Virus record (IMG/VR): IMGVR_UViG_3300036852_000134
Location: 1-64,000 of that record
Reading direction: 5' to 3' (one strand)
Length of the DNA stretch: 64,000 nucleotides
DNA from: a virus
Of the stretch, positions 5,489 to 56,216 are shown in pieces. The notes under the pieces were generated by a model. That model did not search any database and had not been told where the DNA came from. It worked only from the letters and a program-made list of their open reading frames with translations. The number at the start of each line of letters is the position of its first letter. The first letter of the stretch is position 1. Made by a program: the position numbers and the translations under genes.

Positions 5489-8400
5489 TCATAGCCGCTC
5501 GTTCGTTTGTGGGGATGGGATGGCGGCGAGCACAGTCGCCGGCCTCGGCGCCTTCGCCCTAATGTGCGACCTGGGATCTGTCTTATGCGTCCCCGGCGTC
5601 GGGAAGGCGACCATGTCCAGCGTGGGGAATATGTGATCCTGATCTACGGTTGCGCCTTCGATGACGCGTGGCAGCGGATCGAGCGCACCGGTGTCGTCAC
5701 CCAAGAACAGGCCACGGGCATGCGTGTTGTAGAGCACCAGCGCCGTTTGCGCGACGCGCTTCATCTGAGCAAGGGCGGTGCCGGCCTGTGCGCCGTAGGC
5801 GAGCTTGCCGCTCCGCCAGTTTGCGTCAAAAGGCAAGCCTGCGACCGCGTGGTGGAGGCCGTCCGTCAGCCCGGTGAGCGTGATGTCGCCACCGGTGTCC
5901 GTCGTCCACAGCCTCTGCGAGAAGTCACTCCCCGTGTCCGGAGACATATCGACGTGCGGTGTAGATCCCGTGTCGAGACTTCCCCAAACGACGAGGCTCG
6001 TGCTCGGGAGGTGTGGGGCTATCGCGTGGAGGAAGGTGGTGCGCCCTGTATCCGTGAAGCTGACGCTGCAGTCAGCCAAGTAGTGAAGGCCGGTATCACC
6101 CTGGCACTCGCTCTCCTTGGCCCACTTCTCAAGGAAGCGCTTCGTGACTCCGTTGACGGTGCGCCTGACGTGGTAATAGACGGCGTCTTCATCGACGCCC
6201 GGTAGGCACATGACGCGCTCGACCGCACCTGAGCCTGAGGACCAGGTCGTCCAGCAGATCACCTCCTCGGCTGGCTCGTAGGTCAGGATCGCGACCTTGC
6301 CATCGGCAAGGGCCACATGAATTCTCGTGTCGGGCTGCCGCTGGACCGCAATCGATACGACGCCAGCCGCCAAGAGATCAGGCACCAGCACGGTCAGTTC
6401 AGATGAGCCATAGTCTCCGACTGCCGCTTGCGTGTCAGGCCCGACCATGAACACGCGCTTCCTCGATCGCTGGACGAAGATGCCCCTGCCGTCCACCTTG
6501 ATGGCGCGTAGGGGCGCCGTGCCCTGCGTAGAGAAGGTTGCGGCGCTGGAGTTGGTTGGGGTTAGCGGCTCGTCAAGGGACGAGGAGCGCAAGGTAAGCT
6601 CGGCGCCGGACGTGTGCACGATGAGGCGGAGCAGGGAGAGCAGCGTGTGGATACTATCGACCGGCCCTGATCCTAGCGTACGGATGATCGGGCCGGCATC
6701 TCCGGTTGTTGACTCATCGAAGCTTTGATAGTCATCGGCGACGGAGAGGAACAGGCTTCCGCCCTGAGCATGAGCCAGGCGCCCGCTGTGGAGCTGAACC
6801 GCCGTCGGGAACCCGCGTGCGTCGGACCAGTAGCCCTGTTGCCAGTTGTCGGAGGTGCCAGTGTCAGAGAAGCGGGAGAGCACCTCTATGCCAACTGAGG
6901 TGTTGGAGTTGTAGTCGGTGATGCGGGCGATGCCGGTCACACCTCCGCCACCGTAGGTGGCAGCGACGACTGCAACGCCAGAAGTGTATCCCCCTGCGCC
7001 TACTCCAGTATCCAGCGTGCTTCCCGTGTCAGCAACCCTGGCGCGATACCAAACTTTCAAGTTATCGTCTGTATCGGCTATGATCTTCGTAAAGGTCCCC
7101 GTATCACTGGCAGTCGTTCCAAACGATGGCGGAACCGGCTTGAACCCGATGTCCGGACCGTCGATAGAACGCTCTATCGTTATGCGTCCAGTCCACGTGC
7201 CGGACACTGAGAAAATGATGCGCCGTTCGTCATTCTCTGCCAGTGTCCCGGTATCCAAGATCCCAGTCATCGCGATCGGATCAGTGTAGGCGCCGGCCGC
7301 CCCAAGGCGCCACTGGCCGCTCTGTCCATCATGGAATGCGCGCACCAGCGCACCAACGTGCGTTGACTTGAAGAACGGAATATCAGAGTTGAGCGTCGTG
7401 TTGCCGAAGAAGTGGGAGACGGAGAGCTTGGCAGACGAGGACCGCGTTGGAAGGAATGGGCCATCATCCGGTGCGTAGTCCACCACGGACCAGGATCGCC
7501 CGGTTCCGCGACGCTCGATCATCTGCTGGCGCACGCCGTCGCAGTTGGCAAACACCACGTCCGCCGACTGGTCGTGGCGGATGTCGTCGAGGTTATCCGC
7601 TTCCCATGGCGTCGTGATCTCAACCGTGCCGCTGTCGCTGATCTCCAGCGAGGAGACGATGCGGTCGATGATGGCGTCCGACTGTAGCGTGATCCAGAAG
7701 TTGCCCTGAGGCGTGAAGGCAAGGTTGTGGTAGCCGGTGCCGATCGATGTCTCGGAGATGTAGTCGTCGTCGCCGTTGGTGGAACCGACACGCAAGGTGA
7801 CGGGGCCGCGTCCGACCTGGATGGCAAGCGCATGCTCCGTGCCCGTGTCGGAGACGATGACGCGCTTGGTGGCCTTGGCACGAGCGCCGATGGAGGTGGC
7901 GTTGAGGTACAACTGGCCGCTGGAGAACCGCGCCTGGTTGGCCGTCTGTGCATCGAACAGTTCGACCTCGGCAACGAACAATTCGTTGTCCCCAGCGGCT
8001 GTCGTGAAGAAGAACCGCCAATGCCGGCGCGCCGTTACAGTGCCAGTGTCGCCCTGATCCGTCGCGTAGGTGCGCCTTTCCGAAATGGCCCAGCCGGTCT
8101 GACTACTGCGCTCGTCTTCCAGCGTCCACTTTCCGGTGTCGGCGGCAAAGGTGCCGGTGTCAAAATTGCTCGCGATCAGGCGCCAGGCTGACGGGGCATT
8201 ATCCAAAAACCCAGACTGATCGGCCGCCCTGACCGAATACGATGTAACGGCCTTTCGATTCCCCGTGTCGCTCCCGAAATCGATGTTGAGCCACGACGGT
8301 AGAGTGCTGGCAGTGCCGCCCTCTTCGCTGGAGCCGCTAAGCCCCGTGTCGGCCCAAACGGACGAGGCGTCGTCGTCGGCTGCGCGCCAACCCTGCGCGT

Positions 8401-8890
8401 TGTTCTCAGCCTCTTCCGAGGAGGATGTGATCGTGACGCCGTTGGTCGTCGCCCCCGTCATGGTGGGTATGATGTCGTTGGGATCGCCGCTGACGACGGC
8501 CCCGCCCGTGCTGGCGTTTGTCCACCCCGTGTCGCTCAGGCTCACCGTCGTATCGACGGCCGGCCTGGACAGTAGGTCCAGATCGTGCGCGTCGTCGCCG
8601 AGCCAGATGCGCATGGCGCCACCAGCGCCGCCCGTGTCGTTGGCAAGCTCCAACAGCGCAACGTCATCCGTCGAGGCGATGAACTCTACCCAGTACGCGC
8701 CGGTGTCGCGGATTGAACTTCCCTTGTGCTTTGTGCCGGGGCGGATCGACATGCTTCCTTGTGTGGCGCAAATGAAATTGTTATAGACCTCGGCAGACAG
8801 CTTCACCCTGTCGAGATCGACGCGGGCGAGCGCCTTTGGGCTGATGAGACCGCGATTGAAAGCTACCAGACCCGCGTTGACACGGCTCAT
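5489..8890 (-). CDS. Tail tubular protein B-like, loaded with DTG tripeptides
   Basis: An 1133-residue structural protein. The N-terminus (RVNAGLVAFNRGLISPKAL) and C-terminal blocks (ALVLYNTHARGL, then LDPLP and APRPATVLAA) fit the large nozzle or stabilisation protein at the tip of short phage tails. Between them are beta-rich domains, including a galactose-binding-like stretch near residues 200-310. By hand count it holds 20 Asp-Thr-Gly tripeptides, at residues 62, 85, 120, 181, 208, 244, 251, 281, 348, 546, 596, 621, 627, 676, 932, 947, 973, 985, 998 and 1066, and one DSG at 419. About one would be expected by composition. Residues 677-931 have none. The family call is firm; the motif is unexplained. 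Confidence 0.85.
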   Translation of the reverse strand: MSRVNAGLVAFNRGLISPKALARVDLDRVKLSAEVYNNFICATQGSMSIRPGTKHKGSSIRDTGAYWVEFIASTDDVALLELANDTGGAGGAMRIWLGDDAHDLDLLSRPAVDTTVSLSDTGWTNASTGGAVVSGDPNDIIPTMTGATTNGVTITSSSEEAENNAQGWRAADDDASSVWADTGLSGSSEEGGTASTLPSWLNIDFGSDTGNRKAVTSYSVRAADQSGFLDNAPSAWRLIASNFDTGTFAADTGKWTLEDERSSQTGWAISERRTYATDQGDTGTVTARRHWRFFFTTAAGDNELFVAEVELFDAQTANQARFSSGQLYLNATSIGARAKATKRVIVSDTGTEHALAIQVGRGPVTLRVGSTNGDDDYISETSIGTGYHNLAFTPQGNFWITLQSDAIIDRIVSSLEISDSGTVEITTPWEADNLDDIRHDQSADVVFANCDGVRQQMIERRGTGRSWSVVDYAPDDGPFLPTRSSSAKLSVSHFFGNTTLNSDIPFFKSTHVGALVRAFHDGQSGQWRLGAAGAYTDPIAMTGILDTGTLAENDERRIIFSVSGTWTGRITIERSIDGPDIGFKPVPPSFGTTASDTGTFTKIIADTDDNLKVWYRARVADTGSTLDTGVGAGGYTSGVAVVAATYGGGGVTGIARITDYNSNTSVGIEVLSRFSDTGTSDNWQQGYWSDARGFPTAVQLHSGRLAHAQGGSLFLSVADDYQSFDESTTGDAGPIIRTLGSGPVDSIHTLLSLLRLIVHTSGAELTLRSSSLDEPLTPTNSSAATFSTQGTAPLRAIKVDGRGIFVQRSRKRVFMVGPDTQAAVGDYGSSELTVLVPDLLAAGVVSIAVQRQPDTRIHVALADGKVAILTYEPAEEVICWTTWSSGSGAVERVMCLPGVDEDAVYYHVRRTVNGVTKRFLEKWAKESECQGDTGLHYLADCSVSFTDTGRTTFLHAIAPHLPSTSLVVWGSLDTGSTPHVDMSPDTGSDFSQRLWTTDTGGDITLTGLTDGLHHAVAGLPFDANWRSGKLAYGAQAGTALAQMKRVAQTALVLYNTHARGLFLGDDTGALDPLPRVIEGATVDQDHIFPTLDMVAFPTPGTHKTDPRSHIRAKAPRPATVLAAIPSPQTNERL

Positions 8891-8896
8891 CGTCTC

Positions 8897-9541
8897 TTAC
8901 CCCGTCAGCCTGCCGCGCGACCCGCGATCACGCCCAGCACTTCGCCCCCAACGCGCCTGCGTCCAACTGCCAGGAGGCGGGAACTTGGGCTGCGCTTCAT
9001 TCATCGCGTCGATGTTCTTCGCAACCTTGCGCGCCTGGTCCCGCTCCTCGCCGATCTCCCGCCTCAAGCCGGCATTCTGCGTGAGCGCCATGCAGACGCG
9101 ATGTGCTAACTCTAGCTCGACATACCTGGAGAAGTTTTCAGGCCACCGACTGAGATCGAGCCCAAGCCCAGTGTCATTGGAGACATAGCGCGCATAGATC
9201 GGCGTGTTGTCCGCCGACCAGAAGCTGTCATCGTCGTAGTATTGGGTCAGCGGGTAGGCGAAATATTCGTCGAGCGAGACGGCGATAGTGCGGACCCAGT
9301 CGGACGGCTTGGCGAAGACCTCGGTGAAGCCGAACGAAGGCGTCACACCAGTGTCGGCATCGAGCTGCACCGTCTCCATGGCGAAGTTCCAGGAGCCGGA
9401 GGCGACGCATGTCGCCACGACCTTGTCGTAGACAGCCGTAAGCTCACGAGCGGCCTTTACCGGGTCACCCGTGTCGGACAAGCGCTCGCTACCGAGATCC
9501 TGCAAGGCAGAATTCCACAGGGCGAGTTTTGTCGTGCCCAT
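8897..9541 (-). CDS. Tail tubular protein A / head-tail adaptor
   Basis: A 214-residue protein of the gp11-type adaptor family. Visible family signatures are LALWNSALQDLGSERL at the start, then SGSWNFAMETVQ, AKPSDWVRTIAVS, YARYVSND and LSRWPENFSRYVE. It joins the portal or neck to the nozzle protein encoded just downstream (6-nt gap). It carries three DTG tripeptides (residues 23, 63 and 123), each in a place that looks like a loop between conserved segments. Well supported by family pattern and order. Confidence 0.87.
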   Translation of the reverse strand: MGTTKLALWNSALQDLGSERLSDTGDPVKAARELTAVYDKVVATCVASGSWNFAMETVQLDADTGVTPSFGFTEVFAKPSDWVRTIAVSLDEYFAYPLTQYYDDDSFWSADNTPIYARYVSNDTGLGLDLSRWPENFSRYVELELAHRVCMALTQNAGLRREIGEERDQARKVAKNIDAMNEAQPKFPPPGSWTQARWGRSAGRDRGSRGRLTG

Positions 9542-9542
9542 C

Positions 9543-10028
9543 TCAGTCTTCCACCTTCACGGGGTCAACCCAGGCCTTGCCGGTATTGAGATCGATCGGC
9601 CGCGCCACGCCGGTCTTGATGTCGATGCTCGGGCCGATGCAGATCAGATCGAGGCCGCAGGGGTTCCCCAGATTGTTGCGCACGATGCCACGGATGCGGA
9701 GGACGGCGGAGAACGAGCCGCTCTCAGTCTCCAGGAAGATCTTGGAGCCGATCTTGTCCACCGTGGTGTTGAGAGGGTTGCGCGCAACCCTTGCAGCGAC
9801 GTTGGCCCAGGCGACCGGGTTCATCACGTCGGCAAACGTCCACTCTTTCGGAGCGGTGGCCGTGAGAATTTCAGTCTCCCCGTAACCCAGGGGCTGCAAG
9901 CTGCTGGGGGAGAACTGCTTCGGCTGAACCTTGCGCAATAGTTCCACGGCGGGTTTCACCGAGGGCGCAACAGTTTCAGCAGTCTTGGAAGACTTCGCGG
10001 ACTTGGTAGCCACGGCAGCATCAGACAT
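9543..10028 (-). CDS. Hypothetical head/tail-region protein
   Basis: The likely start is the ATG at 10028, preceded by AAGGAAACC, giving 161 residues; an upstream ATG in the same frame would read through a terminator hairpin and is less likely. The first 40 residues are Ala/Lys/Ser-rich and probably disordered. The rest is a mixed alpha/beta domain ending DLNTGKAWVDPV. It has no DTG motif. Its stop nearly touches the start of the adaptor gene. Function not recognised. Confidence 0.7.
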   Translation of the reverse strand: MSDAAVATKSAKSSKTAETVAPSVKPAVELLRKVQPKQFSPSSLQPLGYGETEILTATAPKEWTFADVMNPVAWANVAARVARNPLNTTVDKIGSKIFLETESGSFSAVLRIRGIVRNNLGNPCGLDLICIGPSIDIKTGVARPIDLNTGKAWVDPVKVED

Positions 10029-10052
10029 ATTGGTTTCCTTGAGGTTGATATG

Positions 10053-10086
10053 AAAAAGGTGGGGCCGGCTTCGTGCCGGCCCCACC
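10053..10086 (-). terminator. Rho-independent terminator between two head genes
   Basis: Read on the minus strand, a 12-bp perfect G/C stem (GGTGGGGCCGGC paired with GCCGGCCCCACC) with a 5-nt loop is followed at once by TTTTT. It lies after the stop of the 103-residue head protein and before the next gene, and probably lowers expression of the downstream tail genes relative to capsid genes. Confidence 0.85.
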
Positions 10087-10096
10087 CCAGTTGAGA

Positions 10097-10408
10097 TCAC
10101 GACGTATCGCCGATAAGCACGCCGAGACCGACGGTGACCTGAGTCGCGCCGGTATCCTGCGCCTTCACGACGGTGAGGCCGTACTGCCGACGACCGCTCG
10201 TGTCGTTGGCGTTGTACGCGCCGGTATCGCCCTCGGTGAGGAACACGCGGTCACCCTTGCGCATGCCGCAGTCGTAGCCGGTGGTGAAGAAGCCCTCCAC
10301 CTCCTGCACGTCGGCAATCAGCACGCCCGTATCCCAGTAGTTGAAGGTACGCGGGCTGGCGATCGACTGGAACACGAGGGAGAGTCTGTCCTTATTGAAC
10401 GTAGCCAT
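10097..10408 (-). CDS. Small head protein, possible capsid decoration, with DTG motifs
   Basis: A 103-residue, beta-rich protein encoded directly after the major capsid protein, the usual place for a decoration or head-completion protein. It holds three DTG tripeptides (residues 26, 61 and 85) and one near-match, DTS at 69. That density (3 in 103) is far above chance and similar to the tail proteins. A strong terminator follows it. The decoration role is inferred from position and size only. Confidence 0.68.
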   Translation of the reverse strand: MATFNKDRLSLVFQSIASPRTFNYWDTGVLIADVQEVEGFFTTGYDCGMRKGDRVFLTEGDTGAYNANDTSGRRQYGLTVVKAQDTGATQVTVGLGVLIGDTS

Positions 10409-17788: not shown

Positions 17789-18054
17789 TGACCCCGCCTC
17801 GCAATGCCTTTTCCATGTAGATATAACATGAAGGCAGAGAGTATTTCGTCTCTCTCGTCTTGCGATTTGTCCCACCACTCTTCTAACCACTGCTCCCAAT
17901 CGCCTTTGTGTATTCCCCTGTCTGGGCCTGGCGGTCCGAATGTCCGGACCGCCTTTTGGTGGATTGCGAGAGCCACCAGGACCTCCCCCATAATCTCTTC
18001 TAAGGGGGCCCACCCTCTTGTCATCTCTTCAAGAACGTCTTTGGCGTTTGTCAC
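17785..18054 (-). CDS. Hypothetical acidic protein at cassette edge
   Basis: The GTG at 18054 overlaps the upstream stop as GTGA and gives 89 residues; it is preferred over the far upstream ATG. The protein has a hydrophobic helix (IMGEVLVALAIH) and a Trp-rich acidic stretch (DWEQWLEEWWDKSQDE). No family recognised. It is the last gene of the minus-strand accessory cassette. Confidence 0.6.
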   Translation of the reverse strand: MTNAKDVLEEMTRGWAPLEEIMGEVLVALAIHQKAVRTFGPPGPDRGIHKGDWEQWLEEWWDKSQDERDEILSAFMLYLHGKGIARRGH

Positions 18055-18545
18055 AGGTGTGACCAATCCTGACGCAACCGCTCCAAGTCCTCTCCCGCCA
18101 TCCCCTGGTCTATGAACCACTGCTCACTCCACGGGGGGGCCCACACGTGCCTCTCGTGCCTGACCACCGGCACCTCCTTGATCTCCAGTGCCAGAGCGCA
18201 GGCGACGCGGTGAGCTCCACCTAGAAGCTCACCGTTGGGGTCTACCGGGATGCGCCACTCTGGGATGTCGACGAAGCCTCTGTGGGCCATGGAGGCACAG
18301 ATGGCGGCGGCAGTCTCGATGTAGTGGTCCGTTCCGCTCTTGCCGTCCATACCGAGGTTGAGCTTGGCGTTGGAGGCCTTACGCGCTTCAAGATGCCACC
18401 GGTAGACGCGGACGGCGTCGGGATCATTGCCGGCCAACAGATGCCGGAACAGGCGCCATTTCACCGCTAAGTCGAAACGGCGTGCGGTCACCAATGATGA
18501 TGGCCGCACCCGCATCACTTCTTGTAGGCAGAGCTGCGTTGCCAT
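18051..18545 (-). CDS. ParB/sulfiredoxin-like fold protein
   Basis: A 164-residue protein with the segment PNGELLGGAHRVACALAL followed by IKEVPVVRHER near residues 105-130. This resembles the GxHRxxAA turn of ParB-like nuclease or sulfiredoxin-fold proteins, here with Gly-Gly-Ala-His-Arg. Related stand-alone proteins occur in sugar-related and phage accessory clusters. The fold assignment is moderate; no biochemical role can be stated. Confidence 0.55.
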   Translation of the reverse strand: MATQLCLQEVMRVRPSSLVTARRFDLAVKWRLFRHLLAGNDPDAVRVYRWHLEARKASNAKLNLGMDGKSGTDHYIETAAAICASMAHRGFVDIPEWRIPVDPNGELLGGAHRVACALALEIKEVPVVRHERHVWAPPWSEQWFIDQGMAGEDLERLRQDWSHL

Positions 18546-18907: not shown

Positions 18908-19579
18908 TCACTGCCACCACGGGGGCGGAGATAGAATTTCGGTGCGGCAATCTATGCTTGTTCGCGCGGGCTCACAAGGCGGACGGTTGGCAAACGCGAG
19001 GAGCTGGGCTCTGGCGTCTTCAATTGGCTGGGTTGTATCGATCTCGATGACCGGAACACCTCGCTCATTCAGGACTTTCTTGGCAATTTCAATGGCAGGC
19101 ATCATCAAGCCCACCATCCTTGACCTGTCCTCGAACCTGGTCTCGCGCACCAGCCGGCGGGCTGCGTTGCGCTCCTCAACGATGTGCTGCGGGCACTTGG
19201 TGAAGGCCACACCGATAGACACCGGCATCAGCTCGAAGTAGTGGCGGAGCTCGTTGAGGTCCTTGCCCATGTCGTTCAGGCGCCAGCCGAAGCCTAGGCC
19301 GCGCTGGACGAGGCCGGTCTGGATGTAGGGGCTTTGGCCTTCCATCCGGGCTACGGTGGCCATCTTGCGCACCGAGCGGTTGACCATGCGCAGGGCGGCG
19401 CCGAATGTGGCGTGCGGCTTGATGAGGTGGAAGAGGCGCGTGCACTCGTTGCAGAAGTCGAGCCAAGAGGCCGGGGGTAGGCGGTTCTCAATGGTGATGG
19501 CGTGCGGGCCGTAGAGCGGGTCGCAGAGTGTTGACTTGCCACTCCCCGGCGGGCCGGCGCAGTCCAGCCAAGCGGTCAC
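18908..19579 (-). CDS. P-loop kinase-like protein
   Basis: A 223-residue protein with a perfect Walker A (GPPGSGKST, residues 9-17). A helical middle and an Arg-rich lid-like stretch (ERNAARRLVRETRFEDRSR) follow, then a strand PVIEIDTT. The pattern matches small-molecule or nucleotide kinases of the AAA_33/thymidylate kinase type. The substrate cannot be told. Its stop overlaps no neighbour, but it starts 4 nt inside the preceding gene's end, so it is part of one operon. Confidence 0.7.
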   Translation of the reverse strand: MTAWLDCAGPPGSGKSTLCDPLYGPHAITIENRLPPASWLDFCNECTRLFHLIKPHATFGAALRMVNRSVRKMATVARMEGQSPYIQTGLVQRGLGFGWRLNDMGKDLNELRHYFELMPVSIGVAFTKCPQHIVEERNAARRLVRETRFEDRSRMVGLMMPAIEIAKKVLNERGVPVIEIDTTQPIEDARAQLLAFANRPPCEPARTSIDCRTEILSPPPWWQ

Positions 19580-20007
19580 GCTGCCACCACCGTTCCGCCG
19601 AGCCCGCCGATCCCCTGCGTGTCATCGGCCCATGTGATGGTCTTCATATCGCCGTCGATGCCGCGGTGGTCGTAGAGGGTGTCTCTTACGTCCTTGGGCA
19701 TGATGCGGTCGCCGTTGTTGCGGCGGGCGTAGCCTTCGTGATCCACGTAGAAGTTGTGGGGGTTGGGCTTTGACTTGCGGGAAGGGAGGGTGGAGACGTT
19801 TGAGGCCGGCGGCGCGGCGCCGCGCCGCCGCGGAGCGTCGGCTGCCGTCAGGCGGGCCGCAGCATCGCCACCGTACAACGTGCCGAACGCCAGCGCCATG
19901 AGGTTAAGCCAGGCGATCTGCTTCTCGACAGGCCACTCTGTGTCACTGGGCGGCAGCTTCTTGATCAGCGCCTCAATGAGGGGATCGGCGGATTTCGGAC
20001 GGGCCAT
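19576..20007 (-). CDS. Hypothetical cassette protein
   Basis: The ATG at 20007 overlaps the stop of the methyltransferase by one base, giving 143 residues. There is an N-terminal helical part (WPVEKQIAWLNLMALAFGTLYGG), a linker with basic residues, and a segment HNFYVDHEGYARRNNGDRI that recalls phage proteins of unknown function. The C-terminus is Gly-rich. No motif gives a function. Confidence 0.65.
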   Translation of the reverse strand: MARPKSADPLIEALIKKLPPSDTEWPVEKQIAWLNLMALAFGTLYGGDAAARLTAADAPRRRGAAPPASNVSTLPSRKSKPNPHNFYVDHEGYARRNNGDRIMPKDVRDTLYDHRGIDGDMKTITWADDTQGIGGLGGTVVAA

Positions 20008-20678
20008 CAGGCTGCCTCCGGACGCAATTCTACGATCCGGTAGTCCTCGTGATACCCGGCCTGATCTCGTGCGACCGTCCAACCCTGGAGCGCGCTGGCT
20101 ATCAGGGCGTGGCTCACAGCGAACGGGTGGTTGCGAACCCGAGCCGTGAACACGATCCGCTGCCTCGCCAGTCGTTGCATCTCCTGCAACATGCGGACGA
20201 TGCCCTCGGGGCCGTGCTGCTGGATGATCCAGCGGGTGATGCGGCAGTTTACGGTTGCATCCACACACTTGCCTGGGAACTTGGACGCGAGCAGGTCACC
20301 ATGGAACAGCGCCCAGCGCGCGAGCGGCCCCTTCTCCGTGGCGATGGCCTCAGTGGGGTTATTCACCTTCCTGCCGGCGAGAGCCAGCATGTCGGCGGAG
20401 ATGTCAACGCCACGGACGACGAAGCCCTTGCGGTCGTAGAAGTCGAAGAAGCGGCCAGTGCCGCAGGGGGCGTCGATGACCCAGGAACCGCTGGGCATGT
20501 CGTCGAGGAAGCCCTCAATGATCTTCTGCTCGGCGATCCACTTGGGGGACTGCTCGCGCTTGGCGTCGTAGCCAGTGGCGACTTGGCCGGTGTACTTCAA
20601 GGCGCCACCCTGCTGGGGAGCCGGCTGCTGCGGCTGCGACCCGGCGGGGGGGAGGTATTCCATGAGGGGGTTGGGCAT
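20007..20678 (-). CDS. Class I SAM-dependent methyltransferase
   Basis: A 223-residue enzyme with motif I VIDAPCGTGRFF (residues about 67-78), motif II acidic strand VRGVDIS, and a post-motif segment typical of small-molecule or protein methyltransferases. The first 30 residues are Pro/Gln-rich. It is coupled to the downstream gene by a one-base overlap. The substrate is unknown; nearby glycosyltransferase and oxidoreductase genes suggest a shared modification job. Confidence 0.75.
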   Translation of the reverse strand: MPNPLMEYLPPAGSQPQQPAPQQGGALKYTGQVATGYDAKREQSPKWIAEQKIIEGFLDDMPSGSWVIDAPCGTGRFFDFYDRKGFVVRGVDISADMLALAGRKVNNPTEAIATEKGPLARWALFHGDLLASKFPGKCVDATVNCRITRWIIQQHGPEGIVRMLQEMQRLARQRIVFTARVRNHPFAVSHALIASALQGWTVARDQAGYHEDYRIVELRPEAA

Positions 20679-20681
20679 GCG

Positions 20682-21473
20682 TCAGCGCTCGTTTTGGATG
20701 ATCTCATAGACCTGCCGGTCCGTTATGTGGAACTGCCCGGCGATCACAGTCTTTGGAATCTTGGTAGCATGCAACCGCATGATCTCGCGATTTCGGGCTT
20801 CACGCGCCAATGCCTCTGCACTGCAACCCGTCTCTGATAATGCGTTTTCGAGCGACCACCCGTGTTCCACGAGGCGTTGCCGTACTTTGTGATATGAGAC
20901 CGTTGTTCCAGACAACTCCCCCGCCTTCTTGAGCGGCATCTGCTGTCCACCATATTCCACGACGCGACAACTGCGACGGTTCAGTGCCTGCTCCTTAGCG
21001 GTAGCCCACCTGCAATTACCGGGCTCGTAATTGCCGTCATTGTTGACGCGGTCGATGGTGAGCTTGTCAGGACACTCGCCCATGTCCTCTAGGAAGTTCT
21101 CGAACTTCTTCCAGCGCTCGCATACGGTGATGCCGCGGCCGCCATAAGCTGCATACTCAGCCACTCGGTCATTTGAGCACCGCTGGCACATGGCTTCCCA
21201 TGCACGATAAGCCCGTGATCGCCCCTTTCGGATCGATGACTGCCCGTGCGTCGTGAACCTCTTCGATGTACTCTCTTTCTGATAGCAGCCACAGCTGCTG
21301 ATTTGGCCCTTGCGCAAGTTCTGGCTCAGAGCGGTCGTCTCTTGACCGCAATCGCAGCGACATAGATAGCGCATCTTCTGTTGGCCGGATGGGAATATAT
21401 GGAGGCCTACTTCTGATATCACTATGAGCCGGCCGAACCGGTGACCGATGATGGGGATCGTAACGCCTCTCAT
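20682..21473 (-). CDS. HNH-type homing endonuclease, zinc-binding
   Basis: Starting at the ATG at 21473 (ATGA overlap with the glycosyltransferase stop) it has 263 residues. The N-terminal half has a zinc ribbon (LCRCDCG, then SCGC) and the segment DGNYEPGNCRWATAKEQALN, typical of phage-borne HNH/AP2-like endonucleases. The C-terminus holds a helix-turn-helix-like region (ITDRQVYEIIQ). It is one of six HNH genes in the window. It is probably a free-standing mobile gene, not part of the cassette's chemistry. Confidence 0.75.
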   Translation of the reverse strand: MRGVTIPIIGHRFGRLIVISEVGLHIFPSGQQKMRYLCRCDCGQETTALSQNLRKGQISSCGCYQKESTSKRFTTHGQSSIRKGRSRAYRAWEAMCQRCSNDRVAEYAAYGGRGITVCERWKKFENFLEDMGECPDKLTIDRVNNDGNYEPGNCRWATAKEQALNRRSCRVVEYGGQQMPLKKAGELSGTTVSYHKVRQRLVEHGWSLENALSETGCSAEALAREARNREIMRLHATKIPKTVIAGQFHITDRQVYEIIQNER

Positions 21474-22189
21474 TTGTAAAACCTGGATACCCACGGGTGG
21501 TCTATCTGAACCTGCGGCTGGCTCGGCTCACGCGCACCAGGGAAGCTGACGATGCAGGCGTTCTCGGGAAGCTCAGAGCCGACGCCCTTGCTACCCAATC
21601 TGCCTGCACCATAGATACCCCAGTTCGCGTCGAAATGCGCCTCGTTCCATTCGAGGCGCTCGGATATCCACGCTTGCTCTTTGCCGCCAAACCTCCAGTT
21701 GAACCAGCGGTCGGTTTGGCCTGGGATGAAATCGTCCCACAACTCCTGGCGGACGCCGGCTGAGAACAGCTGCACGCTCGACTGGTAGAAGGCGCGGCCC
21801 GGCAATCCGAAGTTGGGATTTCTCCAAAACACCGCCGGCTCCGTCCTAGCGGCGATGTGGTCGAGGCTTCCCGTGATGACCACGTCGAGGTCGAGGCTAA
21901 GGATGCGCTCCCCAAGATTGGCTCGCGCCCATTCCCCGTTGTGTTGCATCAGCCTTATGCAGACCGTGCCGGGGACGTGCCTGCGCCAGTCGAGGGGGAC
22001 ACAGTCGATGCCGTCGATCTTGTCGTCAGTGACGCACACGAAGCGATGAGGCAGGCTCAGATGGCGCGCCACCATCGATTTCAGAATGTGAACGTGCTCG
22101 TGACGAAACGTGTAGCCGCGGCGCTGGCTGTCGCGGGCTGGATCAGACCAGAAGTAGGTGCAGACGACCAATTCCATGGAGCTACTCAA
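21470..22189 (-). CDS. Glycosyltransferase, GT-A-like
   Basis: A 239-residue protein with a nucleotide-binding N-terminus, the acidic segment LSLDLDVVITGSLD (DxD type, about residues 95-108) and a C-terminal region PENACIVSFPG. The pattern fits phage and bacterial glycosyltransferases that use a metal-bound nucleotide sugar. The acceptor is unknown. It lies among methyltransferase, kinase and oxidoreductase genes and 2.2 kb from a DTG-rich virion-like gene, so protein or envelope-sugar modification are both possible. Confidence 0.72.
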   Translation of the reverse strand: MSSSMELVVCTYFWSDPARDSQRRGYTFRHEHVHILKSMVARHLSLPHRFVCVTDDKIDGIDCVPLDWRRHVPGTVCIRLMQHNGEWARANLGERILSLDLDVVITGSLDHIAARTEPAVFWRNPNFGLPGRAFYQSSVQLFSAGVRQELWDDFIPGQTDRWFNWRFGGKEQAWISERLEWNEAHFDANWGIYGAGRLGSKGVGSELPENACIVSFPGAREPSQPQVQIDHPWVSRFYK

Positions 22190-22499: not shown

Positions 22500-22620
22500 T
22501 TCTTAGTTCCAGACTTTGGATGCGCTGCTCAAGCCGCCTAATGCGGCTAGTCAGATAGCCTATGACGAAAAATGCCATGGCCAGGAAACCATAGATGGCG
22601 ACTGCATCCCACTTGGTCAT
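22489..22620 (-). CDS. Tiny membrane protein with coiled-coil tail
   Basis: A 43-residue frame that starts ATGA-coupled to the oxidoreductase stop and overlaps the next gene's start. One membrane helix (AIYGFLAMAFFVIGYLTS) is followed by a short heptad stretch RIRRLEQRIQSLEL. The shape is like a membrane-anchored adaptor; function unknown. Confidence 0.6.
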   Translation of the reverse strand: MTKWDAVAIYGFLAMAFFVIGYLTSRIRRLEQRIQSLELRSGR

Positions 22621-23681
22621 GCGGCCTCGCGTTTCTCAACGAGGCCGATTATATCAACTACCTGCTGCGCTGCCACTGTGGCACAGCCTAGTTTCCCACT
22701 GAATATCCGGATGATGTTGTCGCCGATCAACTCGACTAAGGTTGGACGCCCATCGTCCGCATCTCGACCGGGAAGCACGGCGCGAACCGTCCACATAGAC
22801 CCCACGAATTCAGCATCCCTGAGACCCGGAATGAATTTCACCCCAGCCTCGATGAAATCCTGGACCCTTGTGTGCGCAGGGTTAACCACCAGCCCGCAAT
22901 TCAGGTAGCCCCTCAGTTGCCGAGGAATCGCTGGCCGGAGCCCGACGTTTGCATGGTGGATGGCATGCTTCACATGCCCCATGACATGCAGGTCGGTATT
23001 CCCGTAAGGGTCTAGGCAGCAGAACTCCCCGTCCATGACGACGATGCCGATGCCGCGGAACTTGGAAGGCATCCGCAGCAAGGGCTTCTCGACCACCTCG
23101 AACTGAAACGGCTCCACTCTTGCACCGAGGTCGAAAGCAACCGCGTTGGTGGAAGCGTAGGCGGCGACAACGATTGCATCGAACTTTGAACGCAAGGATC
23201 GTGTTGCCGACTTCAGGTGGACCGTTACACCGGACTCTTGCAGGCGCTGCGCAACGATTGCACGCAAGCGTTGGAGGTCGAGCCGCGCCTCGTCCACCGA
23301 GAGCACCACGTTGACAGCATCCGCGTTGATCATCGTCGGGCTGGCGTCCACGAAGGACAACCCGTGACGCATGCAGAAGGCGACATACTCCAGGCCTGAA
23401 ACCTTGCTGCCTTCCTTGGCGATGGCGTAGTAGTGGCGGCCACCGTCGATGATGGCGTCACCGTACTCAGCACGGAAAGAGGTGAGAGCGGCCTGGCATT
23501 CAGCGACGGTGGCCGCGCTCCTTGGGTAGTGGAATCCCTCATGGGTTCTGGCCTGGTTCACTGCCGATGCCGCGCCCATGACCTCATTGGGCTCGTAGAG
23601 GTGAACATCATGGCCAGCGCGAGCGAGATGGACGGCGGCGGTGCATCCAAAGAGGCCGCCCCCAGCAACACAGACCCGCAT
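22617..23681 (-). CDS. FAD-dependent oxidoreductase
   Basis: From the ATG at 23681 it has 354 residues. The N-terminus is a classic FAD-binding Rossmann motif (VCVAGGGLFGCTAAVHLARAG), then HEGFHYPRS, seen in amine-oxidase and DAO-like flavoproteins, including sugar-modifying enzymes. The substrate cannot be read from the sequence. It is one-base-coupled to the upstream gene. Its place beside a glycosyltransferase suggests action on a sugar or amino-sugar, which is inference. Confidence 0.72.
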   Translation of the reverse strand: MRVCVAGGGLFGCTAAVHLARAGHDVHLYEPNEVMGAASAVNQARTHEGFHYPRSAATVAECQAALTSFRAEYGDAIIDGGRHYYAIAKEGSKVSGLEYVAFCMRHGLSFVDASPTMINADAVNVVLSVDEARLDLQRLRAIVAQRLQESGVTVHLKSATRSLRSKFDAIVVAAYASTNAVAFDLGARVEPFQFEVVEKPLLRMPSKFRGIGIVVMDGEFCCLDPYGNTDLHVMGHVKHAIHHANVGLRPAIPRQLRGYLNCGLVVNPAHTRVQDFIEAGVKFIPGLRDAEFVGSMWTVRAVLPGRDADDGRPTLVELIGDNIIRIFSGKLGCATVAAQQVVDIIGLVEKREAA

Positions 23682-24382
23682 CACCACTTCCACTGCGGCA
23701 TGTCGAACAGGCAACTCTCACGGTTGGCGACCACCTTGATGCCGCGCTTCATCGCCTCATGGATGAAATACTGGATGCCGGGGCGCTGGTAGACGTACTC
23801 ATTCTCAGCAGCCTGCATGATGCCCCACAGGCCGATCATTGGAATGCCATCAGTCTCTGCGTCCACGATCGACTTCGCGAACATATAGGCGATGCTGCTG
23901 GTGAACTGGCACGGATCGAAGATGCCGTCATGGTTCGGGATCTCGGCGATCCTTTCGCCAACAATGGCCCCATCTGGTCCCTGGACCTTCACCTTCTGGA
24001 GCGTGGACGTGCCCCTGAGTTCCTTCTCGGGATAGAGCCGACCGCCCTTGAAGGACTTAAGCGCCTTCTGGTCTCGCAGCCACACGAACGGCTGCTCACT
24101 CAGATACTTGAGGTATGGGAAGGGCCGGCTCGGGTCCTCCAAGGGAAGGTGGACTTCGAAGACCTCGTCAACGCGCGGCAGCGCCGTCGCGTACTTGCTC
24201 ATTCCGTATGGCGTATTATCCGGAGAGCACGCCAGAATCTTCCAGCTCGCGTCTCCGTAGGGAGCAGCATCCTTAGTCGTCGGATTGCTGCCGACAATGG
24301 CCAAGCCACGAACGGCTGTCTTGGGTGCGGCCGGGAGGACATCCCCACCGGCCGCCTTGGTCTCTATGAGATCATCAAGCAT
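23681..24382 (-). CDS. Hypothetical Rossmann-like phage protein
   Basis: The ATG at 24382 shares its A with the stop of the DTG-rich gene upstream (TGATG), giving 233 residues. AVRGLAIVGSNPTT and WKILACSPDN suggest a Rossmann-like strand-loop pattern, and a later segment resembles phage proteins of unknown role. The clean coupling implies that it is made together with the 288-residue DTG protein. Confidence 0.65.
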   Translation of the reverse strand: MLDDLIETKAAGGDVLPAAPKTAVRGLAIVGSNPTTKDAAPYGDASWKILACSPDNTPYGMSKYATALPRVDEVFEVHLPLEDPSRPFPYLKYLSEQPFVWLRDQKALKSFKGGRLYPEKELRGTSTLQKVKVQGPDGAIVGERIAEIPNHDGIFDPCQFTSSIAYMFAKSIVDAETDGIPMIGLWGIMQAAENEYVYQRPGIQYFIHEAMKRGIKVVANRESCLFDMPQWKW

Positions 24383-25248
24383 CAGAGGCCCGTATCCCTC
24401 GGAGCTGACACGTTGACCCAGTCGATATCGAGAAGGCTGGCGCCCCCAGTGTCGTACCCATAGATGCACGGAGTAAGCGCGGTGGAACTATTGCAAGGAT
24501 CGCTGATGATCCCCTTAGGAACGCCGTCCACGTAGAACGTGACCGTTCCGCCCGTGTCGGAGCTGCTGCGGTGCAGCTCGGCTTCCAGGGTCACATAGGT
24601 GTTGTCGGTGGGGGTCACAGTCGTCAACTGCACCGATTGCAGTGTGTCGCCATCGACGGCAAAGCCGTGCCATCCCGTGGAGCCGCCGAGGTTCCAGCCG
24701 ATGCCAAAGGCATTGGTCGCGGCTGCGCCGTCAGCGCTGCCTCCAGTGTCGAATACCGGCATCTCGGCCGAAGTCGTATCGGTGAAGCCGACGAAGACGC
24801 CGTGCTCGCCGCCCGTGTAGATGGACTTCTTGATGCGCGCGCCAAAGCGCAGTCGGCCGGAATGGGCGCCAGGACCCTGGTTGGGTTTCCAGGACAGCTG
24901 AGGACCGACCATGCCGAATGTGGTACCCGCGACAGTTGTCGTGGTCGTGCTCTGCGACGGTGTGAACCTGAACACACCATTCGTGCCGGCGGTAATGAGA
25001 CCCGTCGTACCAGTATCACCTTTGCGGGTGATGAAATACTGACCGGCGGTTCCGGTGTCGCCGAGCAGATCGGCGCCGACACTTGCATAGAAGTCATCGA
25101 AGATGGCGGTGGTGTCAGGAGCGCCAGGCATGACGACTGCGGGCTTGCCATCACCGCCTGCGACGAAGCCGTACGGAGCCAGGACCTGGTCGTCATTGGT
25201 GAGGCCTAGCGCCCGTCGATGGATGCCCTTGAGCATGGACTTAGACAT
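24382..25248 (-). CDS. Virion-like beta-rich protein with six DTG tripeptides
   Basis: A 288-residue protein, mostly beta with Gly/Thr/Ser-rich loops. The central and C-terminal parts (GRLRFGARIKKS, LEAELHRSS, VTFYVDGVPKG) look like a concanavalin/LamG-type jelly roll. DTG occurs at residues 64, 78, 167, 231, 266 and 285, the last three residues from the end. No enzymatic motif. A good ribosome site (AAGGGAA) precedes the ATG. It is probably a surface virion protein, inferred from fold type and from sharing DTG with the tail tube. Confidence 0.65.
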   Translation of the reverse strand: MSKSMLKGIHRRALGLTNDDQVLAPYGFVAGGDGKPAVVMPGAPDTTAIFDDFYASVGADLLGDTGTAGQYFITRKGDTGTTGLITAGTNGVFRFTPSQSTTTTTVAGTTFGMVGPQLSWKPNQGPGAHSGRLRFGARIKKSIYTGGEHGVFVGFTDTTSAEMPVFDTGGSADGAAATNAFGIGWNLGGSTGWHGFAVDGDTLQSVQLTTVTPTDNTYVTLEAELHRSSSDTGGTVTFYVDGVPKGIISDPCNSSTALTPCIYGYDTGGASLLDIDWVNVSAPRDTGL

Positions 25249-29464: not shown

Positions 29465-29769
29465 CAGAACGTCACTCTCTTGGTGATGATCGTTGCATCT
29501 GTCAGCGACACTTCATCGCCTTCGAGCAGCAGGTGTCCGTCTTCATCGCCCTCAAGCAGGAGCGCATCGGCGCCTCCGGTCTGCATGTCGCCTTCGAGCA
29601 GTAGAAATGAGATTCCAGATATGCCTGTCGTCTCAGCGATACGCTTGGTTTGTCCGCCAGCTGGCGTTCCCTGCACGCGCGCGGTCTGTCCACCGGATGC
29701 TGCACCTGATACCCGCTTGGTGGTGGTCGTGGCCACGTCAGCTCTTGATCCAGATGTAAAGTCTTCCAC
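29464..29769 (-). CDS. Small protein with LLLEGD repeats
   Basis: A 101-residue protein whose last 50 residues carry three spaced copies of LLLEGD (FLLLEGDM, ALLLEGDE, HLLLEGDE). The N-terminus has two copies of a GGQT-type segment (SGGQTARV and AGGQTKRI). Short LLLE-type repeats recur in phage tail-associated proteins. It shares its end with the tailspike start and overlaps the upstream DTG gene by 32 nt. The role is probably structural, inferred. Confidence 0.62.
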   Translation of the reverse strand: MEDFTSGSRADVATTTTKRVSGAASGGQTARVQGTPAGGQTKRIAETTGISGISFLLLEGDMQTGGADALLLEGDEDGHLLLEGDEVSLTDATIITKRVTF

Positions 29770-30130
29770 CGGTGAGCACGACGCCGGTATCGGCTGGCGC
29801 CACCCTGATCTTCAGGCGATCGCCAGCGAGAACCACGGGCACATAGCCCGTATCCGAAGCGTTCCCCGCGCCAGTAACGAAGCTCACGGCCTGCCGCGTT
29901 GCGCGCACGAACTGCGTGGCTAAGTTTGCCGCCGCTGCGTCATAGATCAGCCAGCCCACCCCCGTATCGAGCGTGTCAGGCAGCACGGAGACCTGGAGCG
30001 TGGCAACCTGGCCGGTGTCGGTGGAATGCCACCAGCGCAGCTGCTGGATTTCGCCCATCATATGCGGGCCAGTATCCTGGAAGGTGACACCTCCAGAGAC
30101 GTTCACGTCGAAACGCTGACGGGTGATCAT
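29738..30130 (-). CDS. Virion-like protein with five DTG tripeptides
   Basis: A 130-residue beta-rich protein (FDVNVSGGVTF, LQVSVLPDTL, LKIRVAPAD, GRLYIWI). DTG occurs at residues 19, 38, 55, 93 and 114, or five in 130 residues, the highest density in the window. Position just before LLLEGD and tailspike genes suggests a tail-associated protein. No family assignment is certain. Confidence 0.62.
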   Translation of the reverse strand: MITRQRFDVNVSGGVTFQDTGPHMMGEIQQLRWWHSTDTGQVATLQVSVLPDTLDTGVGWLIYDAAAANLATQFVRATRQAVSFVTGAGNASDTGYVPVVLAGDRLKIRVAPADTGVVLTGGRLYIWIKS

Positions 30131-54981: not shown

Positions 54982-55323
54982 ATGGCCGAACCTGCCACTC
55001 TGATGACGGAGGCCGACTTGGCAACGCTGCTCAACTGCAGCCGCCAAAAGGTACGTCGCCTCCCGATCCGAGGTGTCTACCTCAAGCCGGACCGAAAGCG
55101 CGACAGGCGCTATAACCGGGAGGATGTGAACAAGTACCTGCGTAGCATCGGGATCAAGCCATGTCCATCGGAAGGCCCAAAAACTCGCCGTTCTATCACT
55201 ACGACTTCCGCATTCGCGGACACCGATTTCGCGGGAGCACTGGAGAGGCTACCGAGCGCCAGGCGAAAGCCTTCGAGCGATCAGAGAAAGAGCGCCGACG
55301 TGCTGAAATTAGAGCCGGCATAA
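54982..55323 (+). CDS. xis: Excisionase-like HTH protein
   Basis: The first 60 residues form a MerR/AlpA-type winged helix (TEADLATLLNCSRQKVRR, then RRYNREDVNKYL), usual for excisionases. The frame runs on for 163 nt over the integrase start in another phase, giving 113 residues. The tail is Arg/Ser/Pro-rich and may be incidental. Its place just before the integrase supports control of integration and excision. Confidence 0.72.
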   Translation: MAEPATLMTEADLATLLNCSRQKVRRLPIRGVYLKPDRKRDRRYNREDVNKYLRSIGIKPCPSEGPKTRRSITTTSAFADTDFAGALERLPSARRKPSSDQRKSADVLKLEPA

Positions 55324-56216
55324 CACAGGCGAATACCCCCACCATTGCTGGCGTGTTCGTTAGGTACTGGGAGGCTGAGGGCCACAAGAAGGGTTGGGCC
55401 TACGGCATACAGAAGCACATGCAAGGCATGCTGGCATTCTTCGGGAAGGATCGGTTGTTCGGGGAACTCGGCAACGCCGATGTGGCGTCTATGCTTGAAG
55501 CCTATGAGGCATCCACCGAGCGTAATAACCGTGGCGGGAAAACGACGCGTCCCGGTAAACCGACGCCGAGCACAGCCAATAGACGTCTCGCCGTGCTGCG
55601 TCGAATATATAATAAGGCGCGTATCGAATGGGAGTTGTCGGTCAAAACCATAAACTGGAAAGCGCACACACGCGCAGAACCGAAAGAGCGCGTGCGTCAC
55701 ATCACGGTCGAGCAGGCCAAGACGCTACTGGATCGTCTGCCAAACCACATCATGATCATGGTGGCCTGGTCGCTGGCGACGGGCTGCAGGTTGAACGAGA
55801 CAGAGACCTTGACGTGGGTGCGCGTCAACTTCGAGACGGTTCAGGCTGAGGTGCTGACCAAGGGCGGCGGAACAAGGTTCGTGACGTTGGGGCCTGATGC
55901 GCTCGCCGTGCTCGCCCTATGTGATCGCAACCGGGGCCACGTGTTCGACCGCACCAACCGACGCAAGCTGTGGGAGGCGGCAGTGAAGGCGGCAGGGCTA
56001 GAGGACTTCCGCTGGCACGATTTGCGCCACTGCTTCGCGGTGTGGGTCGGTAACGCCGGAGCTGACATCGCGGTCGTGCAGCAGCTCCTTGGTCACAGCA
56101 AGATCGAGACGACGCTGCGCTATAGGAAGGTCATCACGGCGGAGAGGGCACGGGCGGTGCAGAACCTGCCGACACTGATCGAAGGGACTGTGGTGCCGAT
56201 GAAGGTCAAGCAATGA
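55161..56216 (+). CDS. int: Tyrosine site-specific integrase
   Basis: A 351-residue enzyme. The catalytic set is visible: Arg210 (GCRLNE), Lys234 (TKGGG), His286-x-x-Arg289 (HDLRH), His312 (GHSK) and Tyr321 (TLRYRK). Residues 1-55 bind arm sites and 60-165 core DNA. The tRNA-His fragment at 57405-57443, 1.2 kb downstream, is the likely attP core. Confidence 0.95.
   Translation: MSIGRPKNSPFYHYDFRIRGHRFRGSTGEATERQAKAFERSEKERRRAEIRAGITQANTPTIAGVFVRYWEAEGHKKGWAYGIQKHMQGMLAFFGKDRLFGELGNADVASMLEAYEASTERNNRGGKTTRPGKPTPSTANRRLAVLRRIYNKARIEWELSVKTINWKAHTRAEPKERVRHITVEQAKTLLDRLPNHIMIMVAWSLATGCRLNETETLTWVRVNFETVQAEVLTKGGGTRFVTLGPDALAVLALCDRNRGHVFDRTNRRKLWEAAVKAAGLEDFRWHDLRHCFAVWVGNAGADIAVVQQLLGHSKIETTLRYRKVITAERARAVQNLPTLIEGTVVPMKVKQ

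Follow-up and report, generated by a model that had tools for sequence, protein, structure and literature searches.

The DTG-bearing genes

The DNA analyzed here, hereafter the window, is a stretch of 64,000 nucleotides (positions 1 to 64,000) from the 82,864-base IMG/VR virus record IMGVR_UViG_3300036852_000134, whose head and tail genes are of the podovirus type. We are concerned with the tripeptide Asp-Thr-Gly (DTG), which occurs 37 times in five minus-strand genes of the window. Twenty copies lie in a 1133-residue protein (5489..8890), three in the 214-residue tail adaptor (8897..9541; phrog_394) and three in head103, a small 103-residue protein encoded beside the capsid gene (10097..10408; phrog_18004). 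Two further genes, picked out by their DTG counts, specify a 288-residue protein with six copies (24382..25248) and a 130-residue protein with five (29738..30130). A preliminary description of this DNA had reported 26 copies in three adjacent virion genes. Its counts of 20, 3 and 3 are exact, and the capsid, portal, scaffold, tailspike and terminase lack DTG as it said; the genes are not strictly adjacent, since a 185-residue gene with no DTG (9543-10100) separates the adaptor from head103, and the total of 26 leaves out the two further genes.

The 20-copy protein is assigned as a T7 gp12-like tail nozzle by its family profile (phrog_376, E 3e-114) and by its predicted fold. The AlphaFold2 model, with a mean predicted local distance difference test (pLDDT) score of 78, gives Foldseek matches to the nozzles of Carin1, LME-1 and T7; CBM32 and F-type lectin folds are matched more weakly. 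The protein shares fold and position with the T7 gp12-type nozzle, but it is ~200-300 residues longer than the nozzles of the sister clade described below and is seeded with DTG. In one related locus (L007 10001-14044), the nozzle has an additional inserted domain of ~210 residues that looks LamG-like by eye.

A literature search for the DTG motif in phages returned one unrelated protease paper only. The tripeptide was also considered as an aspartic protease active site and rejected as such: the five DTG proteins have no Pfam protease match, and up to 20 copies are scattered along a single chain.

Enrichment of DTG in one clade

A search with the nozzle found 13 related IMG/VR loci, every one of them rich in DTG, and a search with a capsid alignment found 80 loci, plus 24 in bacterial genomes. 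Where capsid identity is ~68% or more, DTG is present in the nozzle, adaptor, head103, 288-residue and 130-residue proteins. At ~42-63% identity, among what we call the sister phages, homologous genes for the nozzle, the adaptor and mostly head103 are found with no excess of DTG; the DTG-less relatives come mainly from alphaproteobacterial genomes. In a capsid tree, the DTG-bearing entries form one clade with support of 100/100, and a single locus inside it (L064) is an exception. Had the same DTG positions recurred across distant phages, plain conserved structure would have been the simpler account; the distant relatives turn out to lack DTG.

Enrichment among the relatives was computed over ~60 related IMG/VR loci. 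In the DTG clade, observed and expected counts are 493/26.6 for the nozzle, 129/3.9 for the adaptor, 129/6.5 for head103, 61/2.9 for the 288-residue protein and 36/1.1 for the 130-residue protein, an excess of 19-33-fold across the five families. The corresponding sister-clade values are 13/9.4, 1/0.9 and 0/1.1 for nozzle, adaptor and head103. This excess over the relatives is decisive. Residue shuffling of the single genes in the window, a control suggested in the preliminary description, also gives an excess for the nozzle (mean 1.0, maximum 6, versus 20 observed), the 288-residue protein (mean 0.49, maximum 4, versus 6) and the 130-residue protein (mean 0.11, maximum 3, versus 5); it is weak for the three-copy genes taken alone (adaptor, mean 0.09 and maximum 3; head103, mean 0.15 and maximum 4).

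Strong enrichment in these families is limited to exact DTG. NTG, ETG, DTA, DTS and other DTx tripeptides are not enriched, and a doubling of DSG in the nozzle is mostly owing to one conserved site. Nineteen distinct 9-mers encode the 37 copies in the window, and their codon usage broadly resembles that of the other genes; the copies are thus no duplicated DNA repeat, and conservation is at the level of the protein, as originally proposed. Together with the recurrence of the exact tripeptide at shifting sites in relatives, the varied codons support the view that selection acts at the protein level. When IMG/VR was scanned for triple DTG clusters, the dense clusters outside the clade among the matches listed belonged to low-complexity repeats, such as collagen-like GDTG.

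Placement and substitution of the sites

An alignment of 29 nozzle proteins contains 47 distinct sets of DTG columns, some occupied in 29/29 and many in 1-10 of the sequences, and nearly full-length members carry about 10-22 copies each. Among the relatives, the sites move while the copy number remains high. The earlier suggestion that DTG arose by substitution more than by insertion holds for the adaptor, in which 3/3 sites are equal-length substitutions relative to the sister clade (for example, SSLTE to SDTGE, and an NDASYG-like sequence to NDTGLG). The nozzle is mixed, with several sites inside a clade-specific inserted region that sister phages lack. Mapped onto the predicted nozzle structure, the Thr of 16 of the 20 sites falls in a loop, as do 53 of the 101 other Thr residues.

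At conserved sites that keep Asp and Gly, 19 of the 25 single replacements of the middle position are by Ser and none is by Ala, compared with 98/302 and 53/302, respectively, in background Thr columns; the counts take in related sequences and are indicative only.

A further family, fibre-like by eye and with no member observed in the window, carries 9-29 DTG per chain in G002, G007, L295, L296, L305, L306 and L321. The member in G007 (G007:C1 24429-26399, minus strand) has the N-terminus ‘GKRxxGxLTAASPGDT’ that is conserved in the family, and comparison of the family with PHROG gave no match.

Avoidance of DTG in other proteins

The remaining proteins of the DTG clade were examined as fifteen other families (capsid, portal, terminase, scaffold, enzymes of the gene module described below, and others) totaling 109,846 residues with near-copies removed. 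DTG is found twice in this set, versus 28.5 expected. Anagrams of DTG occur 13-30 times, which is close to the numbers expected, and the observed numbers of ETG, NTG and DTA are 28, 15 and 42 (expected 29.9, 13.5 and 41.2). In the sister clade, those of the families that are also present there contain 21 DTG versus 17.8 expected. Counting distinct alignment sites, which lessens the effect of descent, gives 2 for DTG in the DTG clade versus 15 in the sister clade, and 7-18 versus 11-19 for the anagrams. At the level of whole records, the non-decorated genes of ten DTG records contain 5 DTG versus 23.9 expected (anagrams, 14-28), and the gene sets of sister loci contain 33 versus 36.1. Naive Poisson values for the avoidance are 1.8e-10 and 3e-6, which overstate the certainty because the sequences are related.

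This avoidance is the strongest new evidence of the analysis. Enrichment on chosen virion proteins combined with avoidance elsewhere points to a sequon that some factor inside the infected cell reads in trans, and we regard recognition of DTG in trans as very probable. We infer that some activity of the phage-producing cell targets accessible DTG; the phage would have placed the tripeptide where this action is wanted and removed it elsewhere.

A gene module beside the terminase

Adjoining the terminase is a conserved cluster that comprises p164, a P-loop kinase-like protein, a methyltransferase, a glycosyltransferase (GT-I), usually a flavin adenine dinucleotide (FAD) enzyme, p262 and the DTG-bearing 288-residue protein; in the window, all are on the minus strand. 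GT-I (21470..22189; phrog_1962) is the candidate DTG-modifying enzyme. Its AlphaFold2 model (pLDDT 91) has a GT-A fold nearest to GT6/GT8, with matches to glycogenin, GlyE and LARGE, and an invariant DxD motif is formed by D100/D102, so that by model and motif it is a predicted GT-A enzyme. The Glyco_transf_8 profile matches 2/45 members of the family, and a sequence search of solved structures with GT-I gave no match. For relatives of the glycosyltransferase, a single-protein search of viral_contigs found none, and an alignment search found 31 loci. In a glycosyltransferase tree, the podophage enzymes split into GT-I and GT-II. GT-I is present in 10/10 records that are complete at the locus, and GT-II in 0 to 2 copies, which suggests that GT-I is the core enzyme and that the GT-II copies are variable accessory enzymes.

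The class I methyltransferase (20007..20678; Pfam Methyltransf_25/11) is conserved in the module. The kinase-like protein (18908..19579) has weak AAA_33/AAA_18 matches, and p164 (18051..18545) has an invariant GxHRxxC in alignment; its comparison with Pfam gave no match, and the G-x-H-R-x-x-C core recalls, by eye, ParB/sulfiredoxin-like folds. The FAD-dependent oxidoreductase (22617..23714; DAO family, Pfam DAO E 4e-16) is a frequent member of the module, absent from G002. The p262 gene (23681..24469) is present also in some DTG-less sister phages and is thus not DTG-specific.

All DTG records that are complete at the locus carry the cluster of p164, kinase, methyltransferase and glycosyltransferase, and it is absent from every DTG-less relative searched. 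DTG records spanning the region contain the glycosyltransferase and the kinase; of the sister virus records (13.6 to 55.6 kb), 0/9 contain them. The kinase is present in 14/15 DTG records searched and 0/24 DTG-less relatives, being absent from 15 bacterial genomes with such relatives. Judging from locus coordinates, the DTG records without a glycosyltransferase match are fragments that end before the cluster.

A role of the kinase module in phage thymine hypermodification of DNA was considered and rejected. PF00303, which would mark a thymidylate-synthase-like dUMP hydroxymethylase, is missing from the nine DTG records examined, a set that includes fragments, and the Pfam matches of the kinase are weak and generic (AAA), with none to the hydroxymethyl-dU DNA kinase family.

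Elsewhere in the same record, an integrase gene (55161-56216, plus strand; phrog_1) indicates that the phage is probably temperate. Beyond the window, an open reading frame spanning 4325 residues or more (G000 69885-82862, minus strand) runs off the record end and has one DTG only.

Interpretation

DTG has the look of a label, private to these phages, that marks parts of the particle for decoration, most probably by sugars. We infer in turn a modified Thr, a sugar as the modification, GT-I as the agent and a benefit to the virion. During infection, a phage enzyme would modify in trans the Thr of exposed DTG loops. The most likely change is O-glycosylation, with a sugar added by GT-I, the conserved GT-A enzyme; this sugar might then be extended or trimmed by the methyltransferase, the FAD enzyme and the accessory GT-II copies. 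DTG would have been seeded into the nozzle, adaptor, small head protein and fibre-like proteins for decoration, and purged from the capsid, portal, terminase, scaffold, enzymes and the rest so that they stay undecorated. The benefit may be a shielded or altered surface of the tail and fibres. Judged from the sequences, phage-encoded O-glycosylation of Thr in DTG is moderately probable, and for GT-I as the responsible enzyme the chances are roughly even. The fuller proposal of a protein-modification code of the phage's own, with a strict DTG sequon, a phage O-glycosyltransferase, up to 29 sites per chain and erasure elsewhere, we consider evenly poised between true and false. The preliminary description had offered a modified residue, a metal-binding loop and a surface ligand as ideas. 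The first fits best with the near-strict Thr, the avoidance in other proteins and a glycosyltransferase cluster that, within this phage family, is restricted to the DTG clade; either of the others would leave the avoidance unexplained.

Several observations weigh against O-glycosylation by the module. DSG is not avoided in the fifteen families (24 observed, 28.6 expected), so that Ser probably serves poorly or not at all as an acceptor, and the Ser replacements at DTG sites are perhaps mere losses. By sequence, GT-I does not resemble any enzyme whose acceptor is known. The locus L064 has a head103 with DTG but an adaptor and nozzle without; its adaptor resembles the sister type and its capsid lies inside the DTG clade, and from these sequences it reads as a mosaic. 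The association of DTG with the module is essentially one evolutionary event in one clade. In a kinase-based search, DTG proteins are present in the podophage contigs that contain genes of the DTG-bearing families. They are absent from about ten siphophage contigs (L126, L131-L134, L316-L320 and L323), which carry the kinase, the methyltransferase and mostly p164 and the glycosyltransferase among head and tail genes. The module by itself is thus not DTG-specific, and because the link comes from one clade and siphophage modules occur without DTG, the enzyme and the chemistry are put forward here conditionally.

The siphophage module may use another substrate. A search for another enriched tripeptide in the module-bearing siphophages gave none that was convincing, and DTG is found there 2 times versus 6.2 expected (small counts). 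Two of these contigs (L133 and L126) have an MptE-like domain near the module, a domain familiar from flagellin glycosylation proteins.

The alternative that survives best is a non-covalent tag, in which a phage or host protein (a decoration protein, lectin-like domain or assembly factor) binds DTG loops and other proteins escape it by avoidance. It accounts for enrichment and avoidance equally well, and the nozzle region with weak CBM32 and F-type lectin matches speaks for it, but a short loop at 47 nozzle sites in varied contexts is a poor fit to a specific protein-protein contact, and the clade-specific conserved neighbor genes resemble enzymes rather than binders; we consider it unlikely. 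Also improbable, and somewhat more so, is a non-sugar modification of the Thr or Asp, such as the addition of a phosphate or a nucleotide by the P-loop protein, or processing of a donor by p164 and the kinase with the glycosyltransferase serving otherwise. Within podophages, the kinase, p164 and methyltransferase do share the DTG-clade distribution of the glycosyltransferase; however, the P-loop protein is only weakly like small-molecule kinases, and siphophages keep all three genes without DTG.

A third possibility is that DTG is modified by an enzyme of the host, which the phage exploits, the module having another role. Such an arrangement would agree with the presence of the module in DTG-less phages, but DTG is neither in excess nor avoided in the related phages that sit in alphaproteobacterial and other genomes, and known sequon O-glycosylation targets exported proteins (PMC12871550), not virions assembled in the cytoplasm, so that we give it little credence. 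Still less credible is DTG as a favored structural turn only, fixed by descent in one lineage: most sites are in loops and some are conserved in all members, but many have been gained and lost, the similar tripeptides NTG, ETG, DTA and DTS are not enriched, and a structural role would not explain why all the other proteins avoid DTG, a result that already disfavors this reading. Finally, although GAYACNGG is present in many copies on one strand, a DNA motif (repeat, packaging signal or restriction-related site) can be practically dismissed, as it is contradicted by freely varying third positions, by in-frame copies in five genes and by an opposite strand with no comparable clusters.

Comparison with known systems

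Glycosylation of phage virions is a recent finding, and we know of no strict tripeptide reported for it in mycobacteriophages. In that system, phage enzymes are reported to glycosylate the capsids of Che8 and Rita (PMC11256854). The likeness lies in phage-encoded glycosyltransferases, which the window has in GT-I with its predicted GT-A fold, invariant DxD and phrog_1962 assignment; covalent virion glycans are demonstrated in the mycobacteriophages and would be expected here. The glycans there are reported to be on the major capsid protein, whereas in the DTG clade the capsid avoids the tag, and the tail, adaptor and fibre-like proteins bear it.

Sequence-defined O-glycosylation in bacteria has been described only from Bacteroidota (PMC12871550). 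The sequon there, D(S/T)(A/I/L/V/M/T and others), slightly favors Ser over Thr and usually ends in a hydrophobic residue; Gly is rare at the third position and fails when engineered. Only exported substrates are modified, the glycan is transferred from a lipid carrier, and avoidance of the sequon has been noted in proteins not to be modified (PMC8729774, PMC12871550). DTG resembles this system in the Asp that precedes the acceptor Ser/Thr, the shortness of the sequon and the avoidance in non-substrates. It differs in the strict Thr and Gly, the virion proteins as substrates, the phage GT-A enzyme and relatives mainly in Alphaproteobacteria, and the tripeptide counts do not follow the Bacteroidota motif, only DTG being strongly enriched. 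As phage virion proteins, the DTG carriers should fold and be assembled within the cytoplasm.

A further comparison is with the glycosylation-type clusters of siphophages. Tetraselmis viridis virus S20, L126 and L131-L134 have a related glycosyltransferase, which in the IMG/VR clusters is accompanied, among head and tail genes, by p164 and the same kinase and methyltransferase; the difference is that DTG is not enriched. In the cultured S20, the glycosyltransferase relative lies between head and tail genes among several annotated glycosyl-/sialyltransferases and a methyltransferase.

Implications

If the proposal is true, a private, strict sequon would provide a compact enzyme/tag pair that is selected in both directions across a phage proteome. 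Sequence alone would then suffice to predict which virions are glycosylated, and what the glycans are for would become testable. The two-way signature, with substrates enriched and non-substrates purged, would offer a general route to finding unknown modification systems in genomes.

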